DNA of 64,000 nt from contig NZ_KB913037.1 of assembly GCF_000384295.1 (NCBI RefSeq), positions 1,221,975 through 1,285,974 on the forward strand. Direction: 5' to 3'. Of the stretch, positions 51,701-64,000 are shown in pieces. This DNA comes from Amycolatopsis balhimycina FH 1894. Lineage in GTDB: Bacteria; Actinomycetota; Actinomycetes; Mycobacteriales; Pseudonocardiaceae. The translations under genes and the position numbers were made by a program. The notes beneath the pieces were generated by a model that did not search any database, was not told where the DNA came from, and saw only the letters and a program-made list of their open reading frames with translations. The stretch's first letter is position 1. Each line of letters begins with the position of its first letter.

Positions 51701-52734
51701 GCGAGAGCGAACCCGCTCTCCGCCGCGCCACCCTGCAGCGACGCGACCTGCGCGACGACGACATCGCGATCCGCGTCGACTACTGCGGGGTCTGCCACAC
51801 CGACTTGCACTCCCTGCGTGCTCCGCGGGACGCCGCGCTCGTGCCGGGCCATGAGTTCACCGGCGTCGTGACCGCCGCCGGTCCCGCCGTGACGCGGTTC
51901 GCCGCCGGGGATCCGGTCGCGGTCGGCAACATCGTCGACTCCTGCGGGAAGTGCTCGATGTGCCGCCGCGGCCAGGAGAACTTCTGCGCCGAGTTCCCGA
52001 CACTCACCTACGGCGGAACCGACCGCCACGACGGCTCGCCCACGCTGGGCGCGTTCTCCCGCGAGTACGTCGTCCGGGACGAGTTCGCCTACCGGCTCCC
52101 CGCGGGCCTCGATCCCGCGGCGGCCGCGCCGTTGCTGTGCGCGGGGATCACCGTGTGGGAGCCGCTGCGCGCCCTCGGCGCCGGGCCCGGCACGCGGGTG
52201 GCGGTGGCCGGCCTGGGCGGTCTCGGGCACCTGGCGGTCAAGTTGTCGGTCGCTCTCGGCGCGGAGACGACGGTGATCAGCCGTTCACCCGACAAGGCGG
52301 CCGACGCGAGCCGGCTCGGGGCGCGGGACCTGCTGGTGTCGACCGACCCGCGGCAGCCGGCCGCGGCCCGCGACCGGTTCGACATCGTCATCGACACCGT
52401 CGCCGTCGCCCACGACATCGGCCCGCACCTGCGGCTGGTCGCCCTCGACGGCACCCTCAGCCAGGTCGGGCACCTCGGCCCGATCACGGTCGAGGCGATG
52501 GACCTGCTGGTGGGCCGCAAGAAGCTGACCTCCGCGGGCAGCGGCGGCCGGGCCGGGACTGCCGCCATGCTCGAGTTCTGCGCCCGCCACGACGTCACCG
52601 CCGACGTCGAAGTCGTGCCGTCGGCGCACGTGAACGACGTGCTGGAACGCTTGGCCCGCAATGACGTCCGCTACCGCTTCGTCCTCGACCTGGCCGACCT
52701 CGACCACGAAGACCCCCCTCAGAAGGCGGTGTAG
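51631..52734 (+). CDS. Zinc-type alcohol dehydrogenase (YahK/AdhA-like), with replaced 5' end
   Basis: The conserved sequence begins about 51703 (EPALRRATLQRRDLRDDDI) and runs to the stop: catalytic Zn ligands in YCGVCHTDLHS and GHEFTG, structural Zn in SCGKCSMCRRGQENFC, Rossmann loop VAGLGGLGHLAVKLSV. It lacks about 10 residues of the usual N-terminus, and the frame upstream lies antisense to a TetR remnant. GTG 51631 is a nominal start; other in-frame starts up to 51484 are possible. The enzyme may still fold but its own promoter is lost. It overlaps the convergent SDR gene by 16 bases. Substrate unknown. Confidence 0.75.
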   Translation: MPGRPALEAGPRREPDEVTGWLAGESEPALRRATLQRRDLRDDDIAIRVDYCGVCHTDLHSLRAPRDAALVPGHEFTGVVTAAGPAVTRFAAGDPVAVGNIVDSCGKCSMCRRGQENFCAEFPTLTYGGTDRHDGSPTLGAFSREYVVRDEFAYRLPAGLDPAAAAPLLCAGITVWEPLRALGAGPGTRVAVAGLGGLGHLAVKLSVALGAETTVISRSPDKAADASRLGARDLLVSTDPRQPAAARDRFDIVIDTVAVAHDIGPHLRLVALDGTLSQVGHLGPITVEAMDLLVGRKKLTSAGSGGRAGTAAMLEFCARHDVTADVEVVPSAHVNDVLERLARNDVRYRFVLDLADLDHEDPPQKAV

Positions 52735-53453
52735 CCGCCGTCGACGGGGAGGACCGCGCCGGTGATGTAGGACGACTCCGGCGAGGCGAGGAAGACGACC
52801 GCGTCGGCGATCTCTTCGGGGACGGCGAGGCGTTGCAGCGGGATCTGGCTTTCGCGCAGCCGCCGGTAGGCCTCGGGGTCCGGCCTCCGCCGGAACGACG
52901 CTTCGATGACGGGGGTGGCGGTCAGGCCGGGAGCGACGACGTTGACGCGGATGTTGCGCGCCGCCCATTCGATCGCCGCCCCCTTGGCGAGCATGATCAG
53001 GCCGCCCTTGGCGGCGGAGTACAGGACTTCCCCTGGCTTGCCGACGATGCCGAGCCGGGAGCCGACGCAGACGAACGAGCCGCCCTCGGGTGGCATCAGC
53101 GGCGCGAAGTGCTTCATCACCAGGAACGCGCTGAGCAGGTTGCTGTGGAGGACGTCCTTCGCGTCGTCGTAGGCCATCTCGGTGAGCGGGCCGCTGACCT
53201 GCAGGCCGTGGTTGAGGACGACGACGTTCACGGTGCCGGCGGACTCGGCGGCCCGGCGGGCCAGCTCCACGACGAACGCCTCGTCGTTGAGGTCCCCGGG
53301 GATGTACACGTCACCGGGCCGGGTGGTGCCGAGCCGCTCCCGGCGGCTCGTGAGCAGCAGCTGGGCGCCCTCACGGCGGAAACGCGCGCTCACCGCCTCC
53401 CCGATGCCGCTGCCGGCGCCGGTCACCAGGGCGGTGACCTTCTCGAGTCTCAT
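52719..53453 (-). CDS. SDR-family oxidoreductase
   Basis: 244 aa from ATG 53453, nine bases after AGGAG. Typical short-chain dehydrogenase: TALVTGAGSGIGEAVSARF, VVVLNHGLQVSGPL (NHG where NNAG is usual), catalytic Ser in FVCVGSRLGIVGK, YSAAKGG, and VVAPGLTATPVI. The SRLG and NHG variants are slightly unusual. It is the last gene of the minus-strand operon HAD-DSD1-like-SDR. It may reduce or oxidise a hydroxy or keto product of the neighbouring PLP enzyme; that is inference. Confidence 0.88.
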   Translation of the reverse strand: MRLEKVTALVTGAGSGIGEAVSARFRREGAQLLLTSRRERLGTTRPGDVYIPGDLNDEAFVVELARRAAESAGTVNVVVLNHGLQVSGPLTEMAYDDAKDVLHSNLLSAFLVMKHFAPLMPPEGGSFVCVGSRLGIVGKPGEVLYSAAKGGLIMLAKGAAIEWAARNIRVNVVAPGLTATPVIEASFRRRPDPEAYRRLRESQIPLQRLAVPEEIADAVVFLASPESSYITGAVLPVDGGYTAF

Positions 53454-53478
53454 GTCGGACACTCCTTCGCGGGGTGGG

Positions 53479-54585
53479 TCAGCCGAGGAAGCCGCGGGCG
53501 TCGACCGGCCACCGGCGCGGCGCGGTGCCCGCGCTGTCGGTGACGATCAGCTCCTCGAAGTTGATGACGACCGGGCAGACGTGGTTGGGCACTACGGGAA
53601 CCACGTCGCCGACGCCGGGGCGGGCGGCGCCGCCGGGCAGCGCGAGGAAACCGTGGTACTCGTTGAGCTTCGAGAGAACGGCCTCCGTGCCGAGGACGGC
53701 GCCGTAACCGCGCCCGGGACTGCCTTCGCGGCCGAGGGCCTTGGTGCCCGCGTCGAGGATGACCTGGCCGGGAACCCAGTCGCTGACCACGGTCGCGGCG
53801 ACGAACAGGGCGATCTGGTCGTCGGTGCAGGCGCCGAGCCTGCTGTTGTCCAGGTCGCCGAAGACGTACTCGCCGGGCCGGATTTCGGTGATCAGGTCGC
53901 CGGTGGAGAACTCGACGGTGGGCGTGGAGCCCGCACTGACCACCTCGGCGGGGATCCCCGCCTGGCCGAGACCGCGGACCGCGGTGGCGAGTGCGGTCTC
54001 CTGGTCCCGCGCGGCGCGCTCGCGGGCGTCCCGGCCGGAGCTGCCGTGCCCCGGATACGTGAAGACGCCCACCGGCACGAGGCCGCGCTTGCGGGCGGCG
54101 AGCGCGAGGTCGCCCGCGAACTCGGGTGGCGCACCGGAACGGCGGGCGCCGCAGTCGACCTCGACCACGACTTGCAGCCGGTCCGGTTCGTCTCCCATCG
54201 CGTCGGCGAGGGCGTCGATCGCCGCGACGTTGTCGACGCCGACCCGCAGCCGGGTGGTCTCGGCGAGCCGGCGGATCCGGGCTCCCTTCGTTCCCGCGGG
54301 CCAGACCGGATAGGCGAGGAAGATGTCGCCGAAGCCGGCCGCGGCGAAAACCTCGGCCTCGCCGACGTTTCCGGCGGTGATCCCGACCGCCCCCGCGGCG
54401 ACCTGACGCCGGCCGATCTCCACGCACTTGTGCGTCTTGACGTGCGGCCTGACGTCGAGGTGGTGCGCGGCCGCGAAGCCCTGCATGCGGTCGATGTTGT
54501 CCTGCATGACGTCGGCCAGCACGACCGGCGCGGGGGTGTCGATCCGCCCGAGAAGACCGTCGAGTACCCGGTGCAGCCGGTTCAC
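53479..54585 (-). CDS. PLP-dependent DSD1/D-threonine aldolase-like enzyme
   Basis: 368 aa from GTG 54585 with CGTGAGGAGCGC upstream. The alanine-racemase-like N-terminal barrel carries the PLP Lys in RPHVKTHK. VVEVDCGARRSGAP, FTYPGHG, SAGSTPTVEF and the C-terminal metal-binding motif PNHVCPVV (His and Cys ligands) point to D-threonine aldolase or D-serine dehydratase-type enzymes, which act on D-3-hydroxyamino acids. The gap to the upstream HAD gene is 10 bases, so they are one transcript. A D-3-hydroxyamino acid or beta-hydroxy-amine in this pathway is suggested. Confidence 0.85.
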   Translation of the reverse strand: MNRLHRVLDGLLGRIDTPAPVVLADVMQDNIDRMQGFAAAHHLDVRPHVKTHKCVEIGRRQVAAGAVGITAGNVGEAEVFAAAGFGDIFLAYPVWPAGTKGARIRRLAETTRLRVGVDNVAAIDALADAMGDEPDRLQVVVEVDCGARRSGAPPEFAGDLALAARKRGLVPVGVFTYPGHGSSGRDARERAARDQETALATAVRGLGQAGIPAEVVSAGSTPTVEFSTGDLITEIRPGEYVFGDLDNSRLGACTDDQIALFVAATVVSDWVPGQVILDAGTKALGREGSPGRGYGAVLGTEAVLSKLNEYHGFLALPGGAARPGVGDVVPVVPNHVCPVVINFEELIVTDSAGTAPRRWPVDARGFLG

Positions 54586-54595
54586 GTCGCGCTCC

Positions 54596-55276
54596 TCACG
54601 GGCGCGGCAGGCCGAACAGCACGGGCAGGTCGGCGATGTCCGTGATCCGCTCGTAGCCGAGCCACGGCTCGTCCTGCTCGAAGCCGCGGTCGACGTACAC
54701 CTTGTGCTCGATGCCCATCACGGCCGCGGGGCGCAGGTCGTACTTCGGGCTCGCCGAGACGTGCACGAGCTCGCCGGGTGCCACGCCGAGCTTGTCCAAT
54801 GTGTACTCGAACGCGCGCAGCCGCGGCTTGTAGGCGCCCATCTGCTCGGCTGTGATCACGACCTCGAACGGGGCTTGGAGGTTCTCCACGAGGCGCGCCG
54901 CGTGCGCGTCGTCGGTGTTCGTCACGATCACCAGCGGAACGGCCTCCGCCAGGCGCGTCAGTGCCGCGGTGACGCCGGGGTACGGGACCCAGGTCGGGAT
55001 CTCTTCGTACACCGCGCGAGCGTCGCTTTCGCGGTACTCCAGGCCGAACCGGCGCATGGTCCGTTCCAGGGAGCAGGCGACGATCCGGTGGAAGGGCTTC
55101 CACTCGCCCAGGCACTCGTCGATCCGGTAGGCGTCGCCGGCCCGCAGGAAGTCGTCGGCGACCTCCGGCGGGAGGCGGTCGCCCAGGACCCGGCGGATCG
55201 CGTCGTTGATGCGGAAGTGGATCAGCGTCCCGTTCATGTCGAACGTGACGAACTTCGGCTTGCTGTCGAAAGCCAC
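54596..55276 (-). CDS. HAD type II hydrolase (dehalogenase-like), paralogue 1
   Basis: 226 aa from GTG 55276 (CTGGAGGATTCC upstream; the longer frame to 55351 crosses the operator). Nucleophile loop VTFDMNGTLI (Asp followed by Asn at the +2 position), motif II LVIVTNTDDAH, motif III Lys in EQMGAYKPRLRAFEY, and late SASPKYDL. The +2 Asp that HAD phosphatases use as acid is absent, as in L-2-haloacid dehalogenases (DxYGT). It shares many residues with the proteins at 59252 and 60785. It leads the operon with the DSD1-like and SDR genes. The reaction is unknown. Confidence 0.85.
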   Translation of the reverse strand: MAFDSKPKFVTFDMNGTLIHFRINDAIRRVLGDRLPPEVADDFLRAGDAYRIDECLGEWKPFHRIVACSLERTMRRFGLEYRESDARAVYEEIPTWVPYPGVTAALTRLAEAVPLVIVTNTDDAHAARLVENLQAPFEVVITAEQMGAYKPRLRAFEYTLDKLGVAPGELVHVSASPKYDLRPAAVMGIEHKVYVDRGFEQDEPWLGYERITDIADLPVLFGLPRP

Positions 55277-55342
55277 GGAATCCTCCAGGCGGTGATCCGG
55301 CGAGCGGTCGGAGTGGCCGCTCAGCACTGAGTGTCGGTCGCG

Positions 55343-55370
55343 AGTCGTCAACTGTCAACAGTTGACGACT
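55343..55370. promoter_or_regulatory. GntR-type operator between HAD 1 and the ROK regulator
   Basis: A perfect inverted repeat of 13-base arms (AGTCGTCAACTGT, two bases CA, ACAGTTGACGACT). The core AACTGTCAACAGTT equals the reverse complement of the core at 60706-60719 (AACTGTTGACAGTT). The TGT-2-ACA centre is typical of FCD-type GntR sites. It lies between the divergent HAD 1 (start 55276) and ROK (55407) genes and could control both. Confidence 0.75.
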
Positions 55371-55406
55371 GGCTGGGTTCCGCTCGCCCGGCTCGCCCGG
55401 GTCGCT

Positions 55407-56582
55407 ATGGTCCATGAGGTGACGAGCAACCCGACACCGCGCGACCACAACAAGGCCTCGGTTCTGGAGGTGGTCCTCTCCCGGGCACCGTTGACGCGCA
55501 ACGAGGTCATCGAACTCACCGGCCTGAGCAAGGCCACGGTGTCGCGAGCGGTCGAAGAGCTCCGCGCGGACGGTTTCGTCGCCGACGGCGGGGTCGACGC
55601 GGCCACCGGCCGGGGCAGGCGGTCGACCTACCTGGACGTGCCCGGCACGGCCGGGCACGTGGCCGGGGTCAGTTTCGGCGTGCTGACCACCTGCGTCCTG
55701 GTCACCGACCTGCGGGGCCGCGAGGTACACCACGTGGTCGTCCCGACCGCGAACCACGATGACGCCGGCGACGCCGCCGAGTGGCTGGCCGGCCTGATCG
55801 AGGAGACCGCCGGAGCCGGGCGGGGTCCCCTGCGCCAGATCGTCGTCGCGGTGCCCGGCCGGGTCCGCGACGGCACGGAGATCTTCAGTCCGGCGCGGTC
55901 GATGAAGATCTTCACGGGTTCCGGCCTCCACCGCGCCGTCGCGGACCTGGTCGACGCACCGGTACTCCTCGACAGTGACGCCAACGCGTCCCTGCTGGCC
56001 ATCCTCGCCGAGGACACCAGCATCGGGAATGCCGCGCTCTTCAATCTCAGCAGCGTGCTGAACTTCGCCGGCTGCACCGGACACGAACTCGCCCGGGGGC
56101 GCACGCCGGCTTTCGGCGGGATCGGCGTCCTCTGCGCCGGAGCCGGCCAGGAGACCCTTGACGACCTGATGAGCACGCGAGGGCTCCTCAAGTTCGCCCG
56201 CGGCCGGGGACTCGGCCTGAAGCGCGTCGAGGACCTCTGGCGAGGCCGGCGGGACGACGAAGCGCACGCCGAGGTCGTGGCCGCCTTCACCACGGCGATC
56301 GTGACCGCCACGAGCGCGGTCGCCGTGACACTGGACCCGGAAACGGTCTACTTCGCGGGCCGGCTGTGCCCCCTCGTCGAGGAGGTTCTTCCCGAGGTGC
56401 GCAGCCGCCTCGGCCGGATCCTCCCGGCGGCGCCCGAGGTCAAGGTCGTGACGCAGGTCGTCGGCCTGTCCACGGCACGCGGAGCGGTGTTCGCCTGCTT
56501 GGCACTGACCCAGGAGCGGCTGCGGGACGCGGCACTCGGGGCGCGCGGCCGGCGCACGGAACAGTCCACACCGGCCTTCTGA
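55407..56582 (+). CDS. ROK-family transcriptional regulator
   Basis: 391 aa from ATG 55407 (or GTG 55419); no clear ribosome site, so the mRNA may be nearly leaderless. A MarR-like winged helix (ASVLEVVLSRAPLTRNEVIE, LSKATVSRAVEELRADGFV) precedes a ROK fold (VAGVSFGVLTTCVLVTDLRG, VVAVPGRVRDG, LLDSDANASLLA). The ATP-loop motif is weak, and the zinc-binding GHxxxx-CxCGxxGC signature is missing (GHELARGRTPAFGGIGVLCAG), so it is a divergent, non-kinase repressor type. It likely controls neighbouring operon 2 or itself; the ligand is unknown. Confidence 0.85.
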   Translation: MVHEVTSNPTPRDHNKASVLEVVLSRAPLTRNEVIELTGLSKATVSRAVEELRADGFVADGGVDAATGRGRRSTYLDVPGTAGHVAGVSFGVLTTCVLVTDLRGREVHHVVVPTANHDDAGDAAEWLAGLIEETAGAGRGPLRQIVVAVPGRVRDGTEIFSPARSMKIFTGSGLHRAVADLVDAPVLLDSDANASLLAILAEDTSIGNAALFNLSSVLNFAGCTGHELARGRTPAFGGIGVLCAGAGQETLDDLMSTRGLLKFARGRGLGLKRVEDLWRGRRDDEAHAEVVAAFTTAIVTATSAVAVTLDPETVYFAGRLCPLVEEVLPEVRSRLGRILPAAPEVKVVTQVVGLSTARGAVFACLALTQERLRDAALGARGRRTEQSTPAF

Positions 56583-56682
56583 AGGCCGGCCCGGCGGTTT
56601 CGTCCACTTGGATGCGCTACCGCCGAAGTGTCCGATATGGACCGACTCGCGGCGTCGCGCACCTTCGATCTCGAACTATTCA

Positions 56683-56719
56683 AGTTTCAGGTTGAAACTG
56701 GAACAAATGATGGTATGGT
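56683..56719 (+). promoter_or_regulatory. Promoter with overlapping palindromic operator for the aminotransferase operon
   Basis: -35 TTGAAA (56692-56697) and -10 TATGGT (56714-56719) are 16 bases apart, 52 bases before the start codon. AGTTTCA-GGT-TGAAACT (56683-56699) is an exact 7-base inverted repeat overlapping the -35 box, so a bound repressor would block polymerase. The local DNA is AT-rich compared with its surroundings. It differs from the GntR-type site; the ROK protein encoded just upstream is the best candidate. Confidence 0.6.
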
Positions 56720-56770
56720 CGGTCGTGCCAGCGAGGAGCACCGACCGAACGAGACCGAAGGTGGCCGCCG

Positions 56771-58120
56771 ATGACTTCGACGTTGAGCCGGGCAATCGCC
56801 AACTACCCCAACCGGTTCGACCCCGGGATGCTGAGCGAGCTCCCGGAAACCCTCCGGGAGACCATCCGCCGTCGCGACGAGGTGCTCGGTCCCGGCTACA
56901 CGCTCATCTACCGGGAGCCGGTCGAGTTCGTCTCCGGGCACGGGGCCCACCTGGTCGACCGCGACGGCAACGACTACCTGGACGCGTACAACAACGTCCC
57001 CTGCGTCGGCCACGCCCACCCGCACGTGGCCCAAGCGGTCTCCCGCCAGGTGGCGACGGTCAACACCAACACGCGCTACGTCCAGGAGGCACTGGTCGCC
57101 TACGCCGAGCGGTTGCTCGCCACCTTCCCCGAAGGACTGAGCAGGCTGAGCCTCGCCTGCAGCGGTTCGGAAGCGAACGACCTCGCGGTACGGGTGGCGA
57201 AGTTCCACACCGGCGGTACCGGAATCATCGTGACCCGGTGGGCCTACCACGGCATCACCAGCGAGGTCGCGAGCTTCTCACCCACGCTGGGTACGGGTTC
57301 GCCACTGGGGCCGAACGTCCGCGTCATCGACCCGCCCGACCCGCGGCTCGCCGCGCCCGGGGTCGATCTCGCCGAGCACATGCGCGGTCAGGTCCGCGGC
57401 GCGATCGACGATCTCGAGCGGCACGGGTTCCGGCTCGCGGCTTTGGTCACCGACGGCGCGTACTCCAGTGACGGGATCTTCACCGACCCGGTCGGGTACC
57501 TCCCGGGCGTCGTGGACGAGGTCCGGGCGGCCGGCGGTGTCTACATCGCGGACGAGGTGCAGGCGGGGTTCGCCCGGCTCGGCGAGACGATGTGGGGCTT
57601 CAGCCGCCACGGCGTGCTCCCGGACATCGTCACCATGGGTAAGCCGATGGGCAACGGGATGCCGATCTCCGGCGTCGTGTTCCGGCCCGAGGTCTCCGAC
57701 GAATTCGGCCGGAGCGTCCGCTACTTCAACACCTTCGGCGGCAGCTCGATCCCGGTGGCCGCCGGTGCCGCGGTGCTGGACGTCTTCGAGGAGGAGAACG
57801 TCCGGCAGCGCGTCCTCGAGAACGGCACCGCTCTCCGGAAAGGGCTCGAAGAGATCACCGGGGACTCCGCTCACGTCGCCGAGGTCCGCGGCAGCGGCCT
57901 GTACGTCGGCGTGGAGATCGTCGGGGACCGGCAGACGAGCGAGCCCGACCGCGCGCGTGCCGAGGACGTGATCAACGACCTGCGCGATCGCCGGGTCCTC
58001 ATCAGCGGCACGGGCAAGGCCGCCAACGTCCTGAAGATCCGTCCTCCCCTGGCTTTCACCGCCGCGGACGTGACCCGGTTCCTGGAGACCTTCGCCGAGG
58101 TCGCCAAGGTCCGCCTGTAA
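56771..58120 (+). CDS. Class III PLP aminotransferase / phospho-lyase-like enzyme
   Basis: 449 aa from ATG 56771. The fold is complete: LVDRDGNDYLDAYNNVPCVGHAHP, LACSGSEANDLAVRVAKFHTG, WAYHGITSEVASFSP, IADEVQAGFARLGETMWGFS and the PLP Lys291 in TMGKPMGNGMP. The NNVPCVGHAHP and YHGIT motifs resemble ethanolamine-phosphate and 5-phosphohydroxylysine phospho-lyases (AGXT2L-type), which eliminate ammonia and phosphate to give an aldehyde. The next gene encodes a kinase of the type that makes such phosphates. A plain transaminase is the alternative. Confidence 0.88.
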   Translation: MTSTLSRAIANYPNRFDPGMLSELPETLRETIRRRDEVLGPGYTLIYREPVEFVSGHGAHLVDRDGNDYLDAYNNVPCVGHAHPHVAQAVSRQVATVNTNTRYVQEALVAYAERLLATFPEGLSRLSLACSGSEANDLAVRVAKFHTGGTGIIVTRWAYHGITSEVASFSPTLGTGSPLGPNVRVIDPPDPRLAAPGVDLAEHMRGQVRGAIDDLERHGFRLAALVTDGAYSSDGIFTDPVGYLPGVVDEVRAAGGVYIADEVQAGFARLGETMWGFSRHGVLPDIVTMGKPMGNGMPISGVVFRPEVSDEFGRSVRYFNTFGGSSIPVAAGAAVLDVFEEENVRQRVLENGTALRKGLEEITGDSAHVAEVRGSGLYVGVEIVGDRQTSEPDRARAEDVINDLRDRRVLISGTGKAANVLKIRPPLAFTAADVTRFLETFAEVAKVRL

Positions 58121-58137
58121 CGGCCCGTCCGGAGGAA

Positions 58138-59214
58138 ATGATCGTGACCACCGCACCGGATGCGAACTTCGCTCAGCGGCTCCTCGAGGAGAGCGGCCTG
58201 GCATCGCCGCACGAGCCCGTGGACATGGCGCTCGTGAGCACCCTCGTCGCGAAGCACTACCACGTCAGCGGCAACCTCGAGCGGCTGGCGACGGAGAAGG
58301 ACGACACCTTCCGGCTCAGGACCGGCTCGGGGAACTACCTCGTGAAGGTCTCCCCGCCGGACGAGCCGGAGGCCGCGGTCGCACTCCAGACCGCCGTGAT
58401 GCGCTTTCTCGAGGACACTGCCCCGGAGCTTCCGGTCCAACGGGTGAAGCTGACAGTCGACGGGAACGACAACGTGGTTCTCGCGGCAGGCGACGGCAAG
58501 ACCCGCGTTCTCCGGGTACTCGGCTTCGTCGACGGCGAGGTCCTGGCGCAAACGCACGCGGAACCCGGTCAGCTCGCCCGCGCGGGCGAGCTGCTGGGCC
58601 ACGTCGACCTCGCGCTCGCGGCGTTCAGCCACCCCGCGGACCGGCGCGGTCTGGTGTGGGACATCCGCCATTTCCACCGGCTGACCGGACTCGCCGAGCA
58701 CACGCCGGACTCCGGGCACCGCCGGCTGGCGCGAGAGGTCTTCGCGCTCTTCGAGGCAGCTGTCGTCCCGGACCTCGACCACCTGGAGACCCAGGTGATC
58801 CACGGTGACTTCAGCCCGCACAACATCGTCGTGGACCGGCGGCACGACGACTTCGTGACGGGTGTCATCGACTTCGGTGACACCCTGCGCACCGCGGTGA
58901 TCTTCGATCCCGCCGTGGCGCTGGCGAACCTGCTCGGCCGGACGCCGGGCAGCCCCTGGCGGGAGGCCTGCGCCTTCGCCGCCGGCTACGACAAGGTGCG
59001 GCCGATCAAGGACGGCGAACTGCCTCTGCTCCCGGTCGCCGCACTGGCCCGGCTCACCCTGCGCGCGCTGCTGACCGACTGGCGTGCGCGGCGTGTCCCG
59101 GAACGGCGCGACTACCTCCTCAGCCACGCCGAGAACGACTGGCTCAACGTGGAGCGTGCGCTGGCCGTGCCGCTCGGCGAAGTCGTCGCGCACCTGGCGG
59201 CAAGGCCGTCATGA
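58138..59214 (+). CDS. APH-fold small-molecule kinase (hydroxylysine-kinase-like)
   Basis: 358 aa; start ATG 58138 after CCGGAGGAA. Kinase loop VIHGDFSPHNIVVD with catalytic Asp and metal-binding Asn, and VIDFGDTL as the DFG equivalent; the N-lobe carries LVKVSPPDEPEAAVALQTAV. Length and the pattern VWDIRHF match hydroxylysine kinase and homoserine-kinase-like phosphotransferases encoded next to class III aminotransferases. It is translated 17 bases after the aminotransferase gene. The likely reaction is phosphorylation of an amino alcohol, giving the substrate of the phospho-lyase. It may instead be a resistance enzyme, but context is against that. Confidence 0.85.
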   Translation: MIVTTAPDANFAQRLLEESGLASPHEPVDMALVSTLVAKHYHVSGNLERLATEKDDTFRLRTGSGNYLVKVSPPDEPEAAVALQTAVMRFLEDTAPELPVQRVKLTVDGNDNVVLAAGDGKTRVLRVLGFVDGEVLAQTHAEPGQLARAGELLGHVDLALAAFSHPADRRGLVWDIRHFHRLTGLAEHTPDSGHRRLAREVFALFEAAVVPDLDHLETQVIHGDFSPHNIVVDRRHDDFVTGVIDFGDTLRTAVIFDPAVALANLLGRTPGSPWREACAFAAGYDKVRPIKDGELPLLPVAALARLTLRALLTDWRARRVPERRDYLLSHAENDWLNVERALAVPLGEVVAHLAARPS

Positions 59215-59251
59215 CCAAGCTCCGGTTCCACCCCATGAAAGGAAAACAGCC

Positions 59252-59920
59252 ATGATCGAGTTCGAGCCCAAGTACATCACGTTCGACATGCACGGGACGC
59301 TGATCCGGTGGCACCTCACGGACCTGACCCGCAAGCTGCTGGCCGACATCGTCCCCGGCGACCGGATGGACGAAGTCCTCCACAGCTTCAAATGGCAGCG
59401 TCTCGACGAGGTGCTGAACCCCTGGAAGCCCTTTCCGGACATCATCCACGACTCGCTGCGCAAGACCCTGGAACGCTTCGACCTGCCGTACCGGAAGGCT
59501 GACAGCCAGGCCATCGTGGACGCGATCCCCACCTGGGGCCCCTACCCCGAGGTGCCCGAAGCGCTGCGGACGCTGGCCTCCCGCTACCCCCTGGTCATCC
59601 TGAGCAACGCAGCCGACGACCAGGTCATGAGCAACGTGGAGAAGCTCGGGGCCCCGTTCCACGCGGTCTACACCGCCGAGCAGGCCCAGGCCTACAAACC
59701 GCGGTACCAGGCCTTCGAGTACATGCTGAGCCGGCTCGGCTGCGGACCGAAGGACATCCTGCACGTCTCCGCCAGCCCGCGCTACGACCTCATGGCCGCC
59801 AACGACCTGGGCGTCACGAACAAGGTCCACGTCAACCGCGGTTTCGAGCCCAGCACCCCCGGCTACGGCTACTACGAAGTCAACCTGCTCTCCCAGGTTC
59901 CCCCGCTGCTCGGCATCTGA
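59252..59920 (+). CDS. HAD type II hydrolase (dehalogenase-like), paralogue 2
   Basis: 222 aa from ATG 59252 (GAAAGGAAAACAGCC). Nucleophile loop ITFDMHGTLI, with His at the +2 position, LVILSNAADDQV, the Lys in EQAQAYKPRYQAFEYML, and LHVSASPRYDLMAANDLG. The phosphatase acid Asp is absent. It closes operon 2 after the kinase gene. A motif shared with the other two paralogues is AIPTWGPYPEVPEALRTL-like. A role on a phosphorylated or halogenated intermediate is unproven. It is convergent with the GntR gene, 17 bases away. Confidence 0.86.
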   Translation: MIEFEPKYITFDMHGTLIRWHLTDLTRKLLADIVPGDRMDEVLHSFKWQRLDEVLNPWKPFPDIIHDSLRKTLERFDLPYRKADSQAIVDAIPTWGPYPEVPEALRTLASRYPLVILSNAADDQVMSNVEKLGAPFHAVYTAEQAQAYKPRYQAFEYMLSRLGCGPKDILHVSASPRYDLMAANDLGVTNKVHVNRGFEPSTPGYGYYEVNLLSQVPPLLGI

Positions 59921-59937
59921 ACCGGGCCGATCCGGAG

Positions 59938-60615
59938 TCACGACCGCGTGCTGTGCGCGGTCTTCTCCGTGAGCGTCTGCAGGTAGTGGAGGTCGAGGGC
60001 GCGGGTGAACGCCGCCTCGTCCCGGGCGGCGAGCGCGTCGACGATGGCCTGGTGTTCCTGGAAAAGCGAGTCTTCGGAGGGGTACCAGCGTTCGAGCCGG
60101 TTGATCGACAGCGACGACTCGGCGATCAGCGTGGAGTAGGCGCGCTGGATCCGCGAGTTGCCGGAGGCGGCCACCAGTGAGCTGTGAAAACGCAGGTCCA
60201 GCTCGACGACTTCACGCCACCGGCCCGACCGCTCCGCCGGGCCGATCTCGTCGACGATCGCCTGCAGTTCGCCCACGGTTCGCTCGAGGACGCCGTCGTC
60301 CGCGGACAGCACCTTCGCGCCGCAGCGGGCTTCCAGCGTCTGGCGGGCCTCGTAGATCTCGGCGATGTCCTCGGGCGTGATGTCGGTGACGAAGACGCCC
60401 CGGTTGGGGATGCGAACCAGCAGTCCTTCCTGCACCAGCCGCTGCAGCGCCTCGCGCACCGGACCCCGTGACACGCCCAGCTGCTTGGCGATCTCGGACT
60501 CCGACAGCGCCTGCGAGGGCTGCAGGGTGCCGCCGAGGATGTTGTTCCTGATCTGGGCGGCGATCGTGCCGGACACCGACTGGTAGTCGATGGCCTGCAG
60601 GTTCAGGTTCTTCAT
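59938..60615 (-). CDS. GntR-family (FCD/FadR type) regulator
   Basis: 225 aa. The winged helix (IRNNILGGTLQPSQALSESE, LGVSRGPVREALQRLVQEGL) is followed by an FCD ligand domain (ETLEARCGAKVLSADDGVLE, LDLRFHSSLVAASGNSRIQRA, EHQAIVDALAARDEAAFTRA) with the three His residues that bind metal and acid ligands. Such regulators sense carboxylates or amino acids. Its gene is divergent from HAD 3, and the region between holds the TGTTGACA palindrome, suggesting autoregulation together with control of operons 1 and 3. Confidence 0.9.
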   Translation of the reverse strand: MKNLNLQAIDYQSVSGTIAAQIRNNILGGTLQPSQALSESEIAKQLGVSRGPVREALQRLVQEGLLVRIPNRGVFVTDITPEDIAEIYEARQTLEARCGAKVLSADDGVLERTVGELQAIVDEIGPAERSGRWREVVELDLRFHSSLVAASGNSRIQRAYSTLIAESSLSINRLERWYPSEDSLFQEHQAIVDALAARDEAAFTRALDLHYLQTLTEKTAHSTRS

Positions 60616-60662
60616 CCGGTTCCCCCTGGTGTGAGACCCACTGTGGTCGTTCGTTCACTGAA

Positions 60663-60675
60663 GACTGTTGACGAT
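60663..60675. promoter_or_regulatory. Partial GntR-type site near the GntR start
   Basis: GACTGTTGACGAT preserves one half and the centre of the AACTGT-TG-ACAGTT motif. It is 48 bases upstream of the GntR start on the minus strand. It may be a weaker second operator for autoregulation. Confidence 0.45.
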
Positions 60676-60704
60676 AACACGAGCCGAAACGCAGCGTTCA
60701 CAGC

Positions 60705-60720
60705 AAACTGTTGACAGTTT
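60705..60720. promoter_or_regulatory. GntR-type operator before HAD 3
   Basis: AAACTGT-TG-ACAGTTT is a perfect 16-base palindrome with a two-base centre, 65 bases before the HAD 3 start. Its core is identical (inverted) to the core at 55350-55363 upstream of HAD 1. It probably binds the adjacent GntR/FCD protein. Confidence 0.75.
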
Positions 60721-60784
60721 ACAGTGACCCGGCTTACGGTCCTTCCCTGCCGGACACCTCCGCTTCACCTGGAAAGGGCACCCT

Positions 60785-61459
60785 GTGATCGACTCAGCCT
60801 TCCGGCCGAAGTACGTCTCGTTCGACTGCTACGGCACGCTCATCGACTTCCAGATCACCCCGGTCACCCGCGAGCTCGTCGGCGACCTGCTCACCCCGGA
60901 GCAGTTCGACCGGTTCGTGATCGACTTCCGCGGGTACCGGTACGACCAGGTCTGCGGGGAGTACTACGACTACCAGCAGGTTCTCCACGACGCCTACGCC
61001 CGGACCTGCGCGAAGTGGGGCCTCGCCGTGGCCGAAGACGCCGGTGAGCGCTTCTCCGACGCCGTGCTGTCCTGGGGCCCGCACGCGGACATCCCCAGCC
61101 CGCTGAAGAAGCTGGGTGAGCACTACCCGCTGGTGATCCTCTCCAACGCCAACACCCGCTACCTCGATGTCAGCGTGCCCAAGCTCGGAGCCGACTTCCA
61201 CGCCGTGTACACCGCCGAGCAGGCCGGCTTCTACAAGCCCCGCTACGCCGCGTTCGAGTACATGCTCGACCAGCTGAACACCCCGCCGGAGCAGTTCCTC
61301 CACGTCTCTTCGCACACCCGGTACGACCTGATGCCCTGCCACGACCTGGGTTTCACGAACACCGTCCTGCTCGACCGCGGCTACGACCCGCCGGCCCCGG
61401 TCTACGGCTACACCAAGGTCGATTCACTCGACGAGCTGAACGGCCTGCTGGGGCTCTGA
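60785..61459 (+). CDS. HAD type II hydrolase (dehalogenase-like), paralogue 3
   Basis: 224 aa from GTG 60785 (GAAAGGGCACCCT upstream). The nucleophile loop VSFDCYGTLID is the classic DxYGT of L-2-haloacid dehalogenases. LVILSNANTRYLD, EQAGFYKPRYAAFEYML and HVSSHTRYDLMPCHDLG follow. This is the paralogue nearest to known dehalogenases, but the SSN-x-D motif of those enzymes appears as SSHTRYD. It leads operon 3 with the FAD oxidase (6-base gap) and aldehyde dehydrogenase. Action on a non-halogen substrate is quite possible. Confidence 0.88.
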   Translation: MIDSAFRPKYVSFDCYGTLIDFQITPVTRELVGDLLTPEQFDRFVIDFRGYRYDQVCGEYYDYQQVLHDAYARTCAKWGLAVAEDAGERFSDAVLSWGPHADIPSPLKKLGEHYPLVILSNANTRYLDVSVPKLGADFHAVYTAEQAGFYKPRYAAFEYMLDQLNTPPEQFLHVSSHTRYDLMPCHDLGFTNTVLLDRGYDPPAPVYGYTKVDSLDELNGLLGL

Positions 61460-61464
61460 GGGCG

Positions 61465-62742
61465 ATGAAACTGACTTCCTACTGGCAGGACACCGCCACC
61501 CCCGCCGGGGACCACCGGCGGACGCCGGTCCCCGAGCGGGTCGACGTCGCGGTCGTCGGCGGCGGGCTCACCGGGACCTCCGCGGCCGTCGAACTGCGCA
61601 AGCTCGGCGCGTCCGTCGCGGTCCTCGAACAGCACACGATCGGCTGGGGAGCGTCGGGCCGCAACGGCGGCATGGCCACCACCGGCCTGGCGATCGGCTT
61701 CGGCACCGCGGTGAAACGCTACGGCGCCGACCGCGCGGTCGCGATGTTCCGGACCTACAACGACGCGATCGACAGCATCGAGAAGCTCGTCGCCGAGCAC
61801 GGGATCGACTGCGACTTCGAGCGCTCGGGCAAGCTGACCCTCGCCCACCGGCCGTCGCACTTCGAGGCGATGGTCAAGACCCGCAAGGCGCTGGAAGAGC
61901 TCGCCGACCACGAGGTCATTACGGTCCCGAAGAAGGACATCCACTCCGAAATCGGTTCCGACTTCTACTACGGCGCCACGGTGGACCCGTACGGCGCGGG
62001 GCTGCACGTCGGCAAGTTCGTGCACGGCCTGGCGAAGGCGGCCGGTGACCTCGGCGCGACGATCTGCGAGAACGCCGAAGTGACCGCGCTGGACCGCAAT
62101 CCGCGCGGCGGGCACACCCTGCAGACCACCCGCGGGCGGCTGCACGCGGACCAGGTGCTGATCGCCACCAGCGGCTACACCGGGAAGGTGACGCCGTGGC
62201 TGCGGCGGCGGGTGATCCCGGTCGGCAGCTTCATCATCGTGACCGAGCCCCTGGCCCAGGACGTCGTGGACCGGATCCTGCCGCACCGGCGGCAGGCGTC
62301 GGACAGCAAGAACCTCGTCTACTACTTCCGGATCACCCCCGACAACCGGCTGCTCTTCGGCGGCCGCGCCCGGTTCGCGATGTCCAGCCCGGACTCCGAC
62401 GTCCGGAGCGGGCAGATCCTCGTCAGGGCGATGACCGAGCTGTTCCCGTACCTGGCGGGCACCCGGATCGACTACACCTGGGGCGGCCTGGTCGACCTGT
62501 CGATGGACCAGCTCGTGCACGCGGGCGAGCGCGACGGCGTCCACTACTCCGTCGGCTACAGCGGCCACGGCGTGCAGATGGCCACCTACATGGGCCAGAA
62601 GATGGCGCGGTTCATGTCCGGGGACGCCGAAGCCAACATCTGGGGCGACGTCAAGTTCCCCGCCGTGCCGGGGCACTTCGGCCGCCCGTGGTTCCTCCCG
62701 CTGATCGGCGGCGGGGCGCGGGTGCTGGACGCGATCTCATGA
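61465..62742 (+). CDS. FAD-dependent amine oxidase (DAO/PuuB-like)
   Basis: 425 aa. The dinucleotide motif VAVVGGGLTGTSAAVELRKL at about residue 28 and the following GWGASGRNGGM mark the DAO superfamily, close to gamma-glutamylputrescine oxidase PuuB. Late YTWGGLVDLSMDQLVHAGER and YSVGYSGHGVQMATYMG are also typical. No Tat signal, so it is cytosolic. It should oxidise a primary or secondary amine to an aldehyde with H2O2 or another acceptor. Its stop overlaps the aldehyde dehydrogenase start (ATGA), a direct hint that the aldehyde is passed on. Confidence 0.9.
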   Translation: MKLTSYWQDTATPAGDHRRTPVPERVDVAVVGGGLTGTSAAVELRKLGASVAVLEQHTIGWGASGRNGGMATTGLAIGFGTAVKRYGADRAVAMFRTYNDAIDSIEKLVAEHGIDCDFERSGKLTLAHRPSHFEAMVKTRKALEELADHEVITVPKKDIHSEIGSDFYYGATVDPYGAGLHVGKFVHGLAKAAGDLGATICENAEVTALDRNPRGGHTLQTTRGRLHADQVLIATSGYTGKVTPWLRRRVIPVGSFIIVTEPLAQDVVDRILPHRRQASDSKNLVYYFRITPDNRLLFGGRARFAMSSPDSDVRSGQILVRAMTELFPYLAGTRIDYTWGGLVDLSMDQLVHAGERDGVHYSVGYSGHGVQMATYMGQKMARFMSGDAEANIWGDVKFPAVPGHFGRPWFLPLIGGGARVLDAIS

Positions 62743-64000
62743 CCACCACGGCTCCGGTGACGGCGTCGTTCGGCCTGCCCGGCGGCGCCCTGGTCGCCGG
62801 CGAGTGGCAGACCGGCGGGCTCACGTCCGGGGTGGCCGACCCCCACGACGGCACACCCGTCGGGTGGGTCGCGCGCAACGACGCGGCCGACGTCGATGTC
62901 GCCGTCCGGGCGGCGGCCCGAGCGGTCGCCGAGCCGTGGCCGCTCTGGCAGCGGCGCGAGGCCCTCGAGGAGGCCGCCCGGCTGGTCCGGGACGAGGCCG
63001 CCTGGCTGGCCGGGATCATCAGCGCCGAGGGCAGCAAGACGATCGCCGAGGCCGAGCAGGAGGTGCGGCGCTGCGCCGAGACGCTGCGCCTGTCCGCGGC
63101 GGCGGGCCCGGTCCTGCGCGGCGAGGTGCTCGAGTTCGACGACAGCGACCGCGGCGCGGGCAAGCGCGGCTGGTTCGTCCGCGCGCCGATCGGGGTCGTC
63201 GCGGCGATCACCCCGTTCAACGACCCGCTCAACCTGGTCGCCCACAAGGTCGGCCCGGCACTGATCGCGGGCAACGGCGTCGTGGTGAAACCCGCCGACA
63301 CGACTCCGCATTCGGCGCTGGCCCTGGCGGCCATCCTGCTGCGGGCCGGGGTCCCGGCGGCCCGGATCTCGGTCGTGTGCGGCGACGGGGAAACCGGGCA
63401 CGCGCTGGTGACGCACCCGGGCGTCGACGTCGTCTCGTTCACCGGCGGCCCGGCCACGGCGGCACGGATCGCGGCGGCGGCCGGGCCGAAGAAGCTCCTG
63501 ATGGAGCTCGGCGGGAACAACCCGGTGATCGTGTGCGGTGACGCGGACCTCGAGAAGGCCGCCGACGCGATCGTGCGCGGCGCGTTCGGGTGCGCGGGGC
63601 AGAACTGCCTGTCCGTCCAGCGCGTCTACGCCGACGCGGCGATCCACGAAGAACTGCTGACCCGGATCACGGCCGGCACCCGCGCGCTGAAGGTCGGCCC
63701 CAAGACCGACCGCACCACCGACGTCGGCCCGATGATCAGCGAGGCCGAGGCCGCCCGCGTCGAGGCCTGGGTCGACGCGGCTTTGGCCGGGGGCGCCCGC
63801 GCGCACACCGGCGCCCACCGCGGCGGCGCCTACTACCACCCGACCGTCCTCACCGACGTGCCCGCGGACGCCGACGTCCTGGTGCGCGAGGTGTTCGGCC
63901 CGGTGGTGACCGTCATCCCGGTCGGCTCCGCCGACGCGGCGATCGCGGCGGCGAACAGCTCGGAGCACGCCCTGCAGGCCGGTGTCTTCACCGGCGTGCT
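62739..64000 (+). CDS. NAD(P)-dependent aldehyde dehydrogenase (3' end outside window)
   Basis: 420 codons are visible, from ATG 62739 to the window end, still open. Cofactor-binding PFNDPLNLVAHKVGPALIAG and VVVKPADTTPHSALAL, the general base Glu in LLMELGGNNPVIV, and the catalytic Cys in GCAGQNCLSVQR are all present; VREVFGPVVTVIPV follows. Full length should be about 470-490 residues. It shares the pattern of lactaldehyde/phenylglyoxal-type ALDHs with FNDPLN in place of FNFPLN. Coupled to the amine oxidase gene, it should convert the resulting aldehyde to an acid. Confidence 0.92.
   Translation, partial: MTTTAPVTASFGLPGGALVAGEWQTGGLTSGVADPHDGTPVGWVARNDAADVDVAVRAAARAVAEPWPLWQRREALEEAARLVRDEAAWLAGIISAEGSKTIAEAEQEVRRCAETLRLSAAAGPVLRGEVLEFDDSDRGAGKRGWFVRAPIGVVAAITPFNDPLNLVAHKVGPALIAGNGVVVKPADTTPHSALALAAILLRAGVPAARISVVCGDGETGHALVTHPGVDVVSFTGGPATAARIAAAAGPKKLLMELGGNNPVIVCGDADLEKAADAIVRGAFGCAGQNCLSVQRVYADAAIHEELLTRITAGTRALKVGPKTDRTTDVGPMISEAEAARVEAWVDAALAGGARAHTGAHRGGAYYHPTVLTDVPADADVLVREVFGPVVTVIPVGSADAAIAAANSSEHALQAGVFTGV

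Follow-up and report, generated by a model that had tools for sequence, protein, structure and literature searches.

A recurring amine-catabolic gene island of Amycolatopsis balhimycina and the possible role of its three HAD proteins in azetidine ring opening

Introduction

Why would a bacterial gene cluster for amine catabolism keep three paralogous proteins of the haloacid dehalogenase (HAD) superfamily, one in each of its operons? The question is raised by a gene island at the end of a stretch of 64,000 nucleotides (the window), which is part of the 10.86 Mb single-contig genome of the soil actinobacterium Amycolatopsis balhimycina FH 1894. An initial annotation had described three operons with one HAD each and a ROK and a GntR regulator gene between them, and every gene that it named was found: HAD1-DSD1-SDR, aminotransferase-kinase-HAD2 and HAD3-oxidase-ALDH, in which the oxidase is dependent on flavin adenine dinucleotide (FAD) and ALDH is an aldehyde dehydrogenase. 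We consider here, with about even confidence for and against, that these HADs form a family sister to that of L-azetidine-2-carboxylate (AZC) hydrolase and that each of them would open an azetidine-type ring by hydrolysis of a C-N bond. No paper on this gene set was found in the open-access literature searched, a search that most subscription journals fall outside.

Results

HAD1 (54596..55276, minus strand), HAD2 (59252..59920, plus strand) and HAD3 (60785..61459, plus strand) are type II HADs that pass the cut-off of TIGR01428 (haloacid dehalogenase type II, 125.4 bits) with 132.7, 164.4 and 146.4 bits, respectively. The GTG start of HAD1 was chosen by comparison with relatives, a TTG at 55351 being possible as well, and HAD2 has an AlphaFold model with a pLDDT of 94.8. 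The pairwise identities are 46, 37 and 43%, and the long identical segments YKPR..AFEY and YDL that had been pointed out earlier are indeed common to all three. Only HAD-type families, and no YjgF/Rid domain, were matched in Pfam and NCBIfam (E <= 0.001). Within the genome the three are the only members of their family (399-415 bits, the next match reaching 31 bits). The family itself is large: at least 5670 proteins, possibly with other HADs among them, scored at E <= 1e-10 in one family search, and among the 120 matches listed the names, where given, were of the 'haloacid dehalogenase' kind.

The catalytic core of the family is kept. Of 91 aligned copies, 90 have the nucleophilic Asp and the motif Thr, the remaining row being cut off there, and the catalytic Lys and the last Asp are present in all 91. 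Phosphatases of the superfamily carry a DxD in motif I, which the present family lacks: motif I reads D-M-N in HAD1, D-M-H in HAD2 and D-C-Y in HAD3, and the residue two positions after the nucleophile is Tyr in 60 copies, His in 18 and Asn in 12, with a gap in one and Asp in none. Since the core residues are kept and the second Asp of motif I is absent, the HADs look, in the light of general knowledge of the superfamily, like active enzymes that attack carbon and not like phosphatases. A DSD1-linked HAD from outside the alignment (locus L144, 16463-17200) carries Leu where the motif I residue is otherwise Tyr, His or Asn.

The nearest relative with a known activity is AZC hydrolase (PDB entries 3smv and 8ywo; fungal AzhA), which gave the highest sequence score in the PDB. 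The likeness in fold (type II HAD) extends over the full length, and the alignment shows a common F-x-Y-M stretch after the catalytic Lys and an equally spaced last-motif region; the conserved Asp and Lys were taken as equivalent to D12 and K152, the residues mutated in the 8hp entries. The L-2-haloacid dehalogenases (1jud, 2no4 and ZgHAD, 7arp) and the cis-epoxysuccinate hydrolases have the fold and the type II family in common with the HADs, but lie about 50 bits below AZC hydrolase in profile score. The kinship to AZC hydrolase is nevertheless a distant one, as the HAD family is only 26-29% identical to it, has a motif I residue that varies between Tyr, His and Asn, and is usually partnered by an oxidase, a kinase-phospholyase pair or a dehydratase.

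A quick tree (SH-aLRT support, no bootstrap, some long branches, family rows thinned at 85% identity) included 11 of 29 control type II HADs, namely those whose start was found by a motif search. The eight AZC hydrolase rows formed a clade of their own (SH-aLRT 100), with the 50 rows of the HAD family (94) beside it and not within it; the join of the two is not resolved and takes in one control row. HAD1, HAD2 and HAD3 each fell in a separate clade (SH-aLRT 100, 99 and 100) that also holds orthologues from other Actinobacteria. As each of them sits in its own well supported clade, the HADs are not recent duplicates. A recent tandem duplication is rejected by the tree, which corrects the earlier view of duplicates kept in separate operons.

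The genomic setting of the family was surveyed in 104 loci, consisting of the best 80 of at least 546 confirmed matches to a three-HAD profile, ranked on HAD1, and 24 stretches from Actinobacteria. Four loci (L128, L134, L135 and L136) were dropped because the BLAST score of their HAD was no more than 84-97 bits; a distant oxidase of a second type lies near the HAD in three of them, and the fourth has none of the listed partners. The remaining 100 loci hold 111 distinct copies. A gene for an FAD amine oxidase, a kinase/phospholyase, DSD1 or a EutBC-type enzyme lies on the same strand within 400 bp of 82 copies, and 104 copies have such a gene within 4 kb. The fair comparison is the one at 1.5 kb, because the controls have flanks of that length only: with partner labels that depend on bit cut-offs set by ourselves, a partner of more than 80 bits was found within this distance for 95 of the 111 family copies (16 having no listed partner there), against none of the 29 other type II HADs of the same bacterial family, one of which (L191) is identical with the gene behind the weak family-like match in L136. 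Many of the loci are close rhizobial relatives and the counts are hence not independent events. We judge the difference, which spans Actinobacteria and Proteobacteria, too large to be due to kinship alone. The HAD family is non-randomly placed and its genomic setting points to amine catabolism.

Among the 100 loci a kinase is found in 19, RidA in 14 and a tartrate/D-malate-type dehydrogenase (TTC) in 31, the last mostly in one rhizobial cluster type; among 14 control genomes, a single one contains a TTC above the cut-off. Six loci contain an EutB/EutC-like pair (PALP and OCD families) and, because ectoine clusters are depicted with a 'haloacid dehalogenase (hadL)' in a figure of PMC5924519 as well, hydroxyectoine catabolism was considered. 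In Rhizobium leguminosarum WSM2304 (L152) a HAD without an adjoining partner lies near ROK, RidA, SDR and a D-TA family enzyme, in a region that adjoins a beta-N-acetylhexosaminidase and an ATP-binding cassette (ABC) transporter. Downstream of the amine cluster in another locus (L011, 11316-16912) three glycoside hydrolases of the plant-polymer type with ricin-type lectin domains are encoded (GH10, arabinofuranosidase B type and GH59).

The neighbourhoods of AZC hydrolase relatives were compared with those of the HADs by reading 12 of 27 matching records of a plasmid collection, the proteins being 47-62% identical to 3smv and putative with respect to their activity. A class III aminotransferase that is 52-59% identical to that of the rhizobial HAD loci is encoded in five of the 12 loci, an AsnC-type regulator in seven, a strongly matching succinate-semialdehyde dehydrogenase (SSADH) in four and a TTC in two; five lack such an aminotransferase, SSADH or TTC, a sixth has only a weakly matching ALDH, and an Opp-type transporter occurs once. 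TTC proteins act as D-malate dehydrogenases. The gene order in Leisingera (aminotransferase, AZC hydrolase relative, AsnC, SSADH, TTC) is in fact the one predicted by the ring-opened product, (R)-4-amino-2-hydroxybutyrate, which would be converted via malate semialdehyde and D-malate to pyruvate. In the HAD loci (the 104 together with the plasmid loci L150 and L151, see below), 34 of the 37 class III aminotransferases of this kind are more than 45%, and up to 77%, identical to the azetidine-linked ones, and the model PRK05965 is passed by all three that were scanned (from one HAD locus and two azetidine loci). Two loci are particularly informative: a family HAD of Sphingomonas (L090) lies near SSADH-TTC-aminotransferase at a locus where no oxidase was found, and in Variovorax (L085) matches to an Opp transporter, TTC, SSADH, HAD, kinase, phospholyase and AsnC follow each other in this order on one strand.

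One observation weighs against extending the azetidine scheme to the present HADs. A further HAD (HADb) occurs in 23 of 34 loci and could be the true partner of the aminotransferase; it is nearer to AZC hydrolase (36% identity, 127 bits) than to the present family (74 bits). In 11 of the 34 no HADb lies within the stretch read. In A. balhimycina itself the sole TTC gene over the cut-off lies 2.3 Mb away and the aminotransferase encoded past the window does not belong to the PRK05965 group, so that the final steps are less clear here than in Rhizobiales. HADb was noted in L024 (6440-7165) and 23 similar alpha-proteobacterial loci, often between a PRK05965-like aminotransferase and an Opp-type binding protein; in L024 its motif I has Val (D-V-V).

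The island recurs. In Amycolatopsis kentuckyensis the genes from SDR through oxidase are present at 83-95% identity, up to the end of the contig, and modules with HADs are found, partly or wholly, in Lentzea, in several other Actinobacteria and on a conjugative plasmid of Arthrobacter. In four genomes of the same bacterial family as A. balhimycina (G007, G140, G127 and G095) a HAD is found near DSD1-SDR and a HAD near an oxidase, and all of them except G095 have the kinase; G127 has six family copies, one with an internal stop codon. A genome of another bacterial family (G234) has four HADs in about 34 kb, in the modules SDR-RidA-DSD1-HAD, oxidase-HAD adjoining an Opp-type transporter, and ROK-kinase-aminotransferase-HAD. 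The same modules, again with four HADs, occupy about 37 kb of the conjugative plasmid pHiyo8-1 of Arthrobacter sp. Hiyo8 (L150, AP014720.1:143000-192000), where the annotations include 'D-threonine aldolase', 'hydroxylysine kinase', 'ethanolamine-phosphate phospho-lyase', 'probable tartrate dehydrogenase' and 'aspartate ammonia-lyase'; several of these island genes are annotated as adjoining fragments, for instance the D-threonine aldolase in two pieces. On the Klebsiella pneumoniae plasmid pHNBS12 (L151; typed as conjugative, from a retail vegetable) a HAD-oxidase-Opp transporter cluster was seen, together with a second oxidase, a GNAT protein, an amidohydrolase and a gamma-aminobutyrate transaminase.

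This recurrence bears out the initial idea of a coherent catabolic cluster rather than a coincidence. The accompanying expectation that the three HADs would be conserved together held for the set of modules, whereas the HAD lineage and its partner have partly been exchanged among genomes, and partners switch often on the HAD tree. More specifically, in G234 a relative of HAD3 sits with the kinase-aminotransferase, and in Lentzea a relative of HAD2 has an oxidase as its nearest partner. The family was detected in 11 of 150 genomes of the bacterial family (E <= 1e-30; weakly in three, G018, G116 and G133), with 3, 2, 1, 1, 1, 1, 3, 1, 6, 1 and 3 copies, and in 3 of 396 genomes of a phylum sample (E <= 1e-35; A. 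balhimycina included), with 3, 3 and 4 copies. Such a patchy occurrence is as expected of a mobile catabolic island.

Within the island, HAD1 is followed on the minus strand, after 10 bp, by a DSD1-like enzyme dependent on pyridoxal phosphate (PLP) with a D-serine-dehydratase domain (53479..54585; PF01168 and PF14031; PDB matches 4v15 and 3wqc) and, as the third gene, by the SDR oxidoreductase (52719..53462; PF13561/PF00106); DSD1 is succeeded by SDR in several relatives too. The HAD1 operon thus extends upstream of the region first described, as DSD1 and SDR occupy 52719-54585. Just outside this operon a zinc-type alcohol dehydrogenase gene (51805-52734, plus strand) ends inside the 3' end of the SDR gene on the opposite strand. 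The ROK-family regulator (55362..56582, plus strand; PF00480 and MarR_2; putative start codon) precedes the class III PLP enzyme of the aminotransferase family (56771..58120, plus strand) and the APH-type small-molecule kinase (58138..59214, plus strand; PF01636), and ROK adjoining such an aminotransferase-kinase pair recurs in relatives. HAD2 and HAD3 are separated by the GntR/FCD regulator (59938..60615, minus strand; PF00392 and PF07729), for which the best NCBIfam model, phnR_burk, stays under its cut-off. HAD3 is followed after 5 bp by the FAD-dependent oxidoreductase of the DAO family (61465..62742, plus strand; PF01266, 225 bits; TIGR03329 and AmaA both under cut-off). Aminophosphonate catabolism, suggested by the names of the GntR and oxidase models, was dropped because both scores are far under the cut-off. 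The ALDH (62739..64000, plus strand; BLAST likeness to other ALDHs) overlaps the oxidase stop and runs past the window, with an open frame to 64220 when the flank is joined. The tight spacing is consistent with operons.

A transporter past position 64000, where the initial annotation had proposed to look for one, is indeed present: 3' of the ALDH the plus strand encodes an amino-acid ABC transporter (family 3 binding protein, permease and ATPase), the binding protein of which matches three amino-acid-type binders in the PDB, and then a second FAD oxidase. Farther on lie a PucR regulator and an SSADH-like ALDH (minus strand), and then the class III aminotransferase mentioned above (plus strand).

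The partner enzymes point to different kinds of amine. The aminotransferase within the island has phospholyases as its closest solved relatives, not transaminases (5g4i phospholyase, 3e-107 and 362 bits; 6tor ethanolamine-phosphate phospho-lyase, 6e-86 and 292 bits; next chain 1e-46 and 163 bits). The kinase resembles the kinase part of PRK06148 (189.8 bits on the N-terminal part, under the whole-protein cut-off), and a plasmid relative is annotated as hydroxylysine kinase. In the scheme established for ethanolamine and hydroxylysine a vicinal amino alcohol is phosphorylated, after which ammonia and phosphate are eliminated to give an aldehyde. The phospholyase-like aminotransferase beside an APH-type kinase resembles this pathway for ethanolamine and 5-hydroxylysine, but the operon has a HAD added. 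Of the two substrates put forward initially, a phosphorylated amino alcohol is likely for this operon on account of the phospholyase relatives. A metal motif H-x-C, as opposed to H-x-D, separates the D-serine and D-threo-3-hydroxyaspartate dehydratases from the D-threonine aldolases. DSD1 has PNHVC, which is dehydratase-like and as in D-threo-3-hydroxyaspartate dehydratase, and so have 15 of 16 DSD1 homologues of the HAD loci, one row being without a pattern match. The oxidase belongs to the D-amino-acid/pipecolate/sarcosine oxidase superfamily, members of which often act on secondary amines. No PDB match was obtained for the kinase or the oxidase at the cut-offs used (1e-5 and 1e-20). The partners would, judged from these relationships, handle vicinal amino alcohols, beta-hydroxy-alpha-amino acids and secondary amines, respectively.

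Discussion

From the gene content, the family kinship, the non-random recurring modules, the kept core residues, a motif I unlike that of phosphatases and the neighbours in common with the AZC-relative loci, we infer a C-N reaction together with its substrates and an order of steps. The HAD would act by hydrolysis on the C-N bond of a strained ring, or of an amine activated in a similar way, following the route of type II HADs, in which the Asp would attack carbon, the amine would leave and water would free a hydroxy product. The operon partner would then remove nitrogen, and the shape of the ring-opened product would determine which partner this is: an aminotransferase for a free amine, the FAD oxidase for an N-substituted product (a secondary amine), the kinase and phospholyase where a hydroxyl is located beside the amine, and the D-serine-dehydratase-type enzyme for a beta-hydroxy-alpha-amino acid. 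The resulting aldehydes may be passed on to SSADH-like ALDHs and, where present, the TTC. Three variants of the substrate would therefore require three HADs in a single island.

Among the N-substituted azetidines known from nature are nicotianamine and the mugineic acids. The boldest reading, possible though on balance doubtful, is that the island as a whole is a mobile one for the catabolism of plant metallophores with an azetidine ring (nicotianamine and phytosiderophores of the mugineic-acid type), in which the HADs would open plain, N-substituted or 3-hydroxylated rings and the three operons would be interchangeable routes of nitrogen removal that meet at malate semialdehyde, D-malate, aspartate or hydroxyaspartate derivatives.

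The main rival to C-N hydrolysis, which we regard as unlikely, is that the HADs handle imines or enamines in the manner of RidA and thereby protect or speed the neighbouring enzyme, since the amine oxidase, the PLP phospholyase and the PLP dehydratase all release such compounds. The neighbours reported for Rid proteins in PMC4433059, PLP dehydratases and FAD amine oxidases, match those of the HADs. A RidA-type gene moreover adjoins the HAD in several Actinobacteria, and the partners switch frequently on the tree. Still, Rid imine deaminases belong to another protein family, and their genes, already counted among the HAD loci above, stand beside some HADs without replacing them. RidA-like chemistry does not predict the PRK05965-like aminotransferase, the SSADH or the TTC either, and we know of no HAD that performs it.

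That the HADs are true dehalogenases or epoxide hydrolases acting on a halogenated or epoxide amine, would agree with the TIGR01428 scores and with fold matches that include L-2-haloacid dehalogenases and cis-epoxysuccinate hydrolases. We nonetheless consider this improbable, in view of the sequence scores that favour AZC hydrolase and of neighbours that are mostly amine enzymes, none of those read suggesting halogen or epoxide chemistry. The halogenated substrate proposed at the outset is left without support, as no pointer to halogen was found and the closest HAD to have been characterised hydrolyses a C-N bond. A phosphatase function, directed at amines phosphorylated by the kinase, might be expected from the superfamily and from the kinase that adjoins HAD2, but the kinase is present in a minority of the HAD loci and the role is rejected on the motif I residues, which leaves it very improbable. 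Equally hard to credit is a chance juxtaposition of unrelated operons: a patchy family would allow for it, whereas positive genomes often have multiple copies, and clustered modules reappear on a plasmid and in genera that are only distantly related.

Opening of azetidine rings by the HADs, if true, would account for the retention of three such enzymes in one pathway and would provide a candidate gene set for the degradation of azetidine amino acids by bacteria, perhaps among them the plant iron carriers that shape the iron supply around roots. For a family that is large and set in amine catabolism, it would in addition correct a common misannotation as 'haloacid dehalogenase'.

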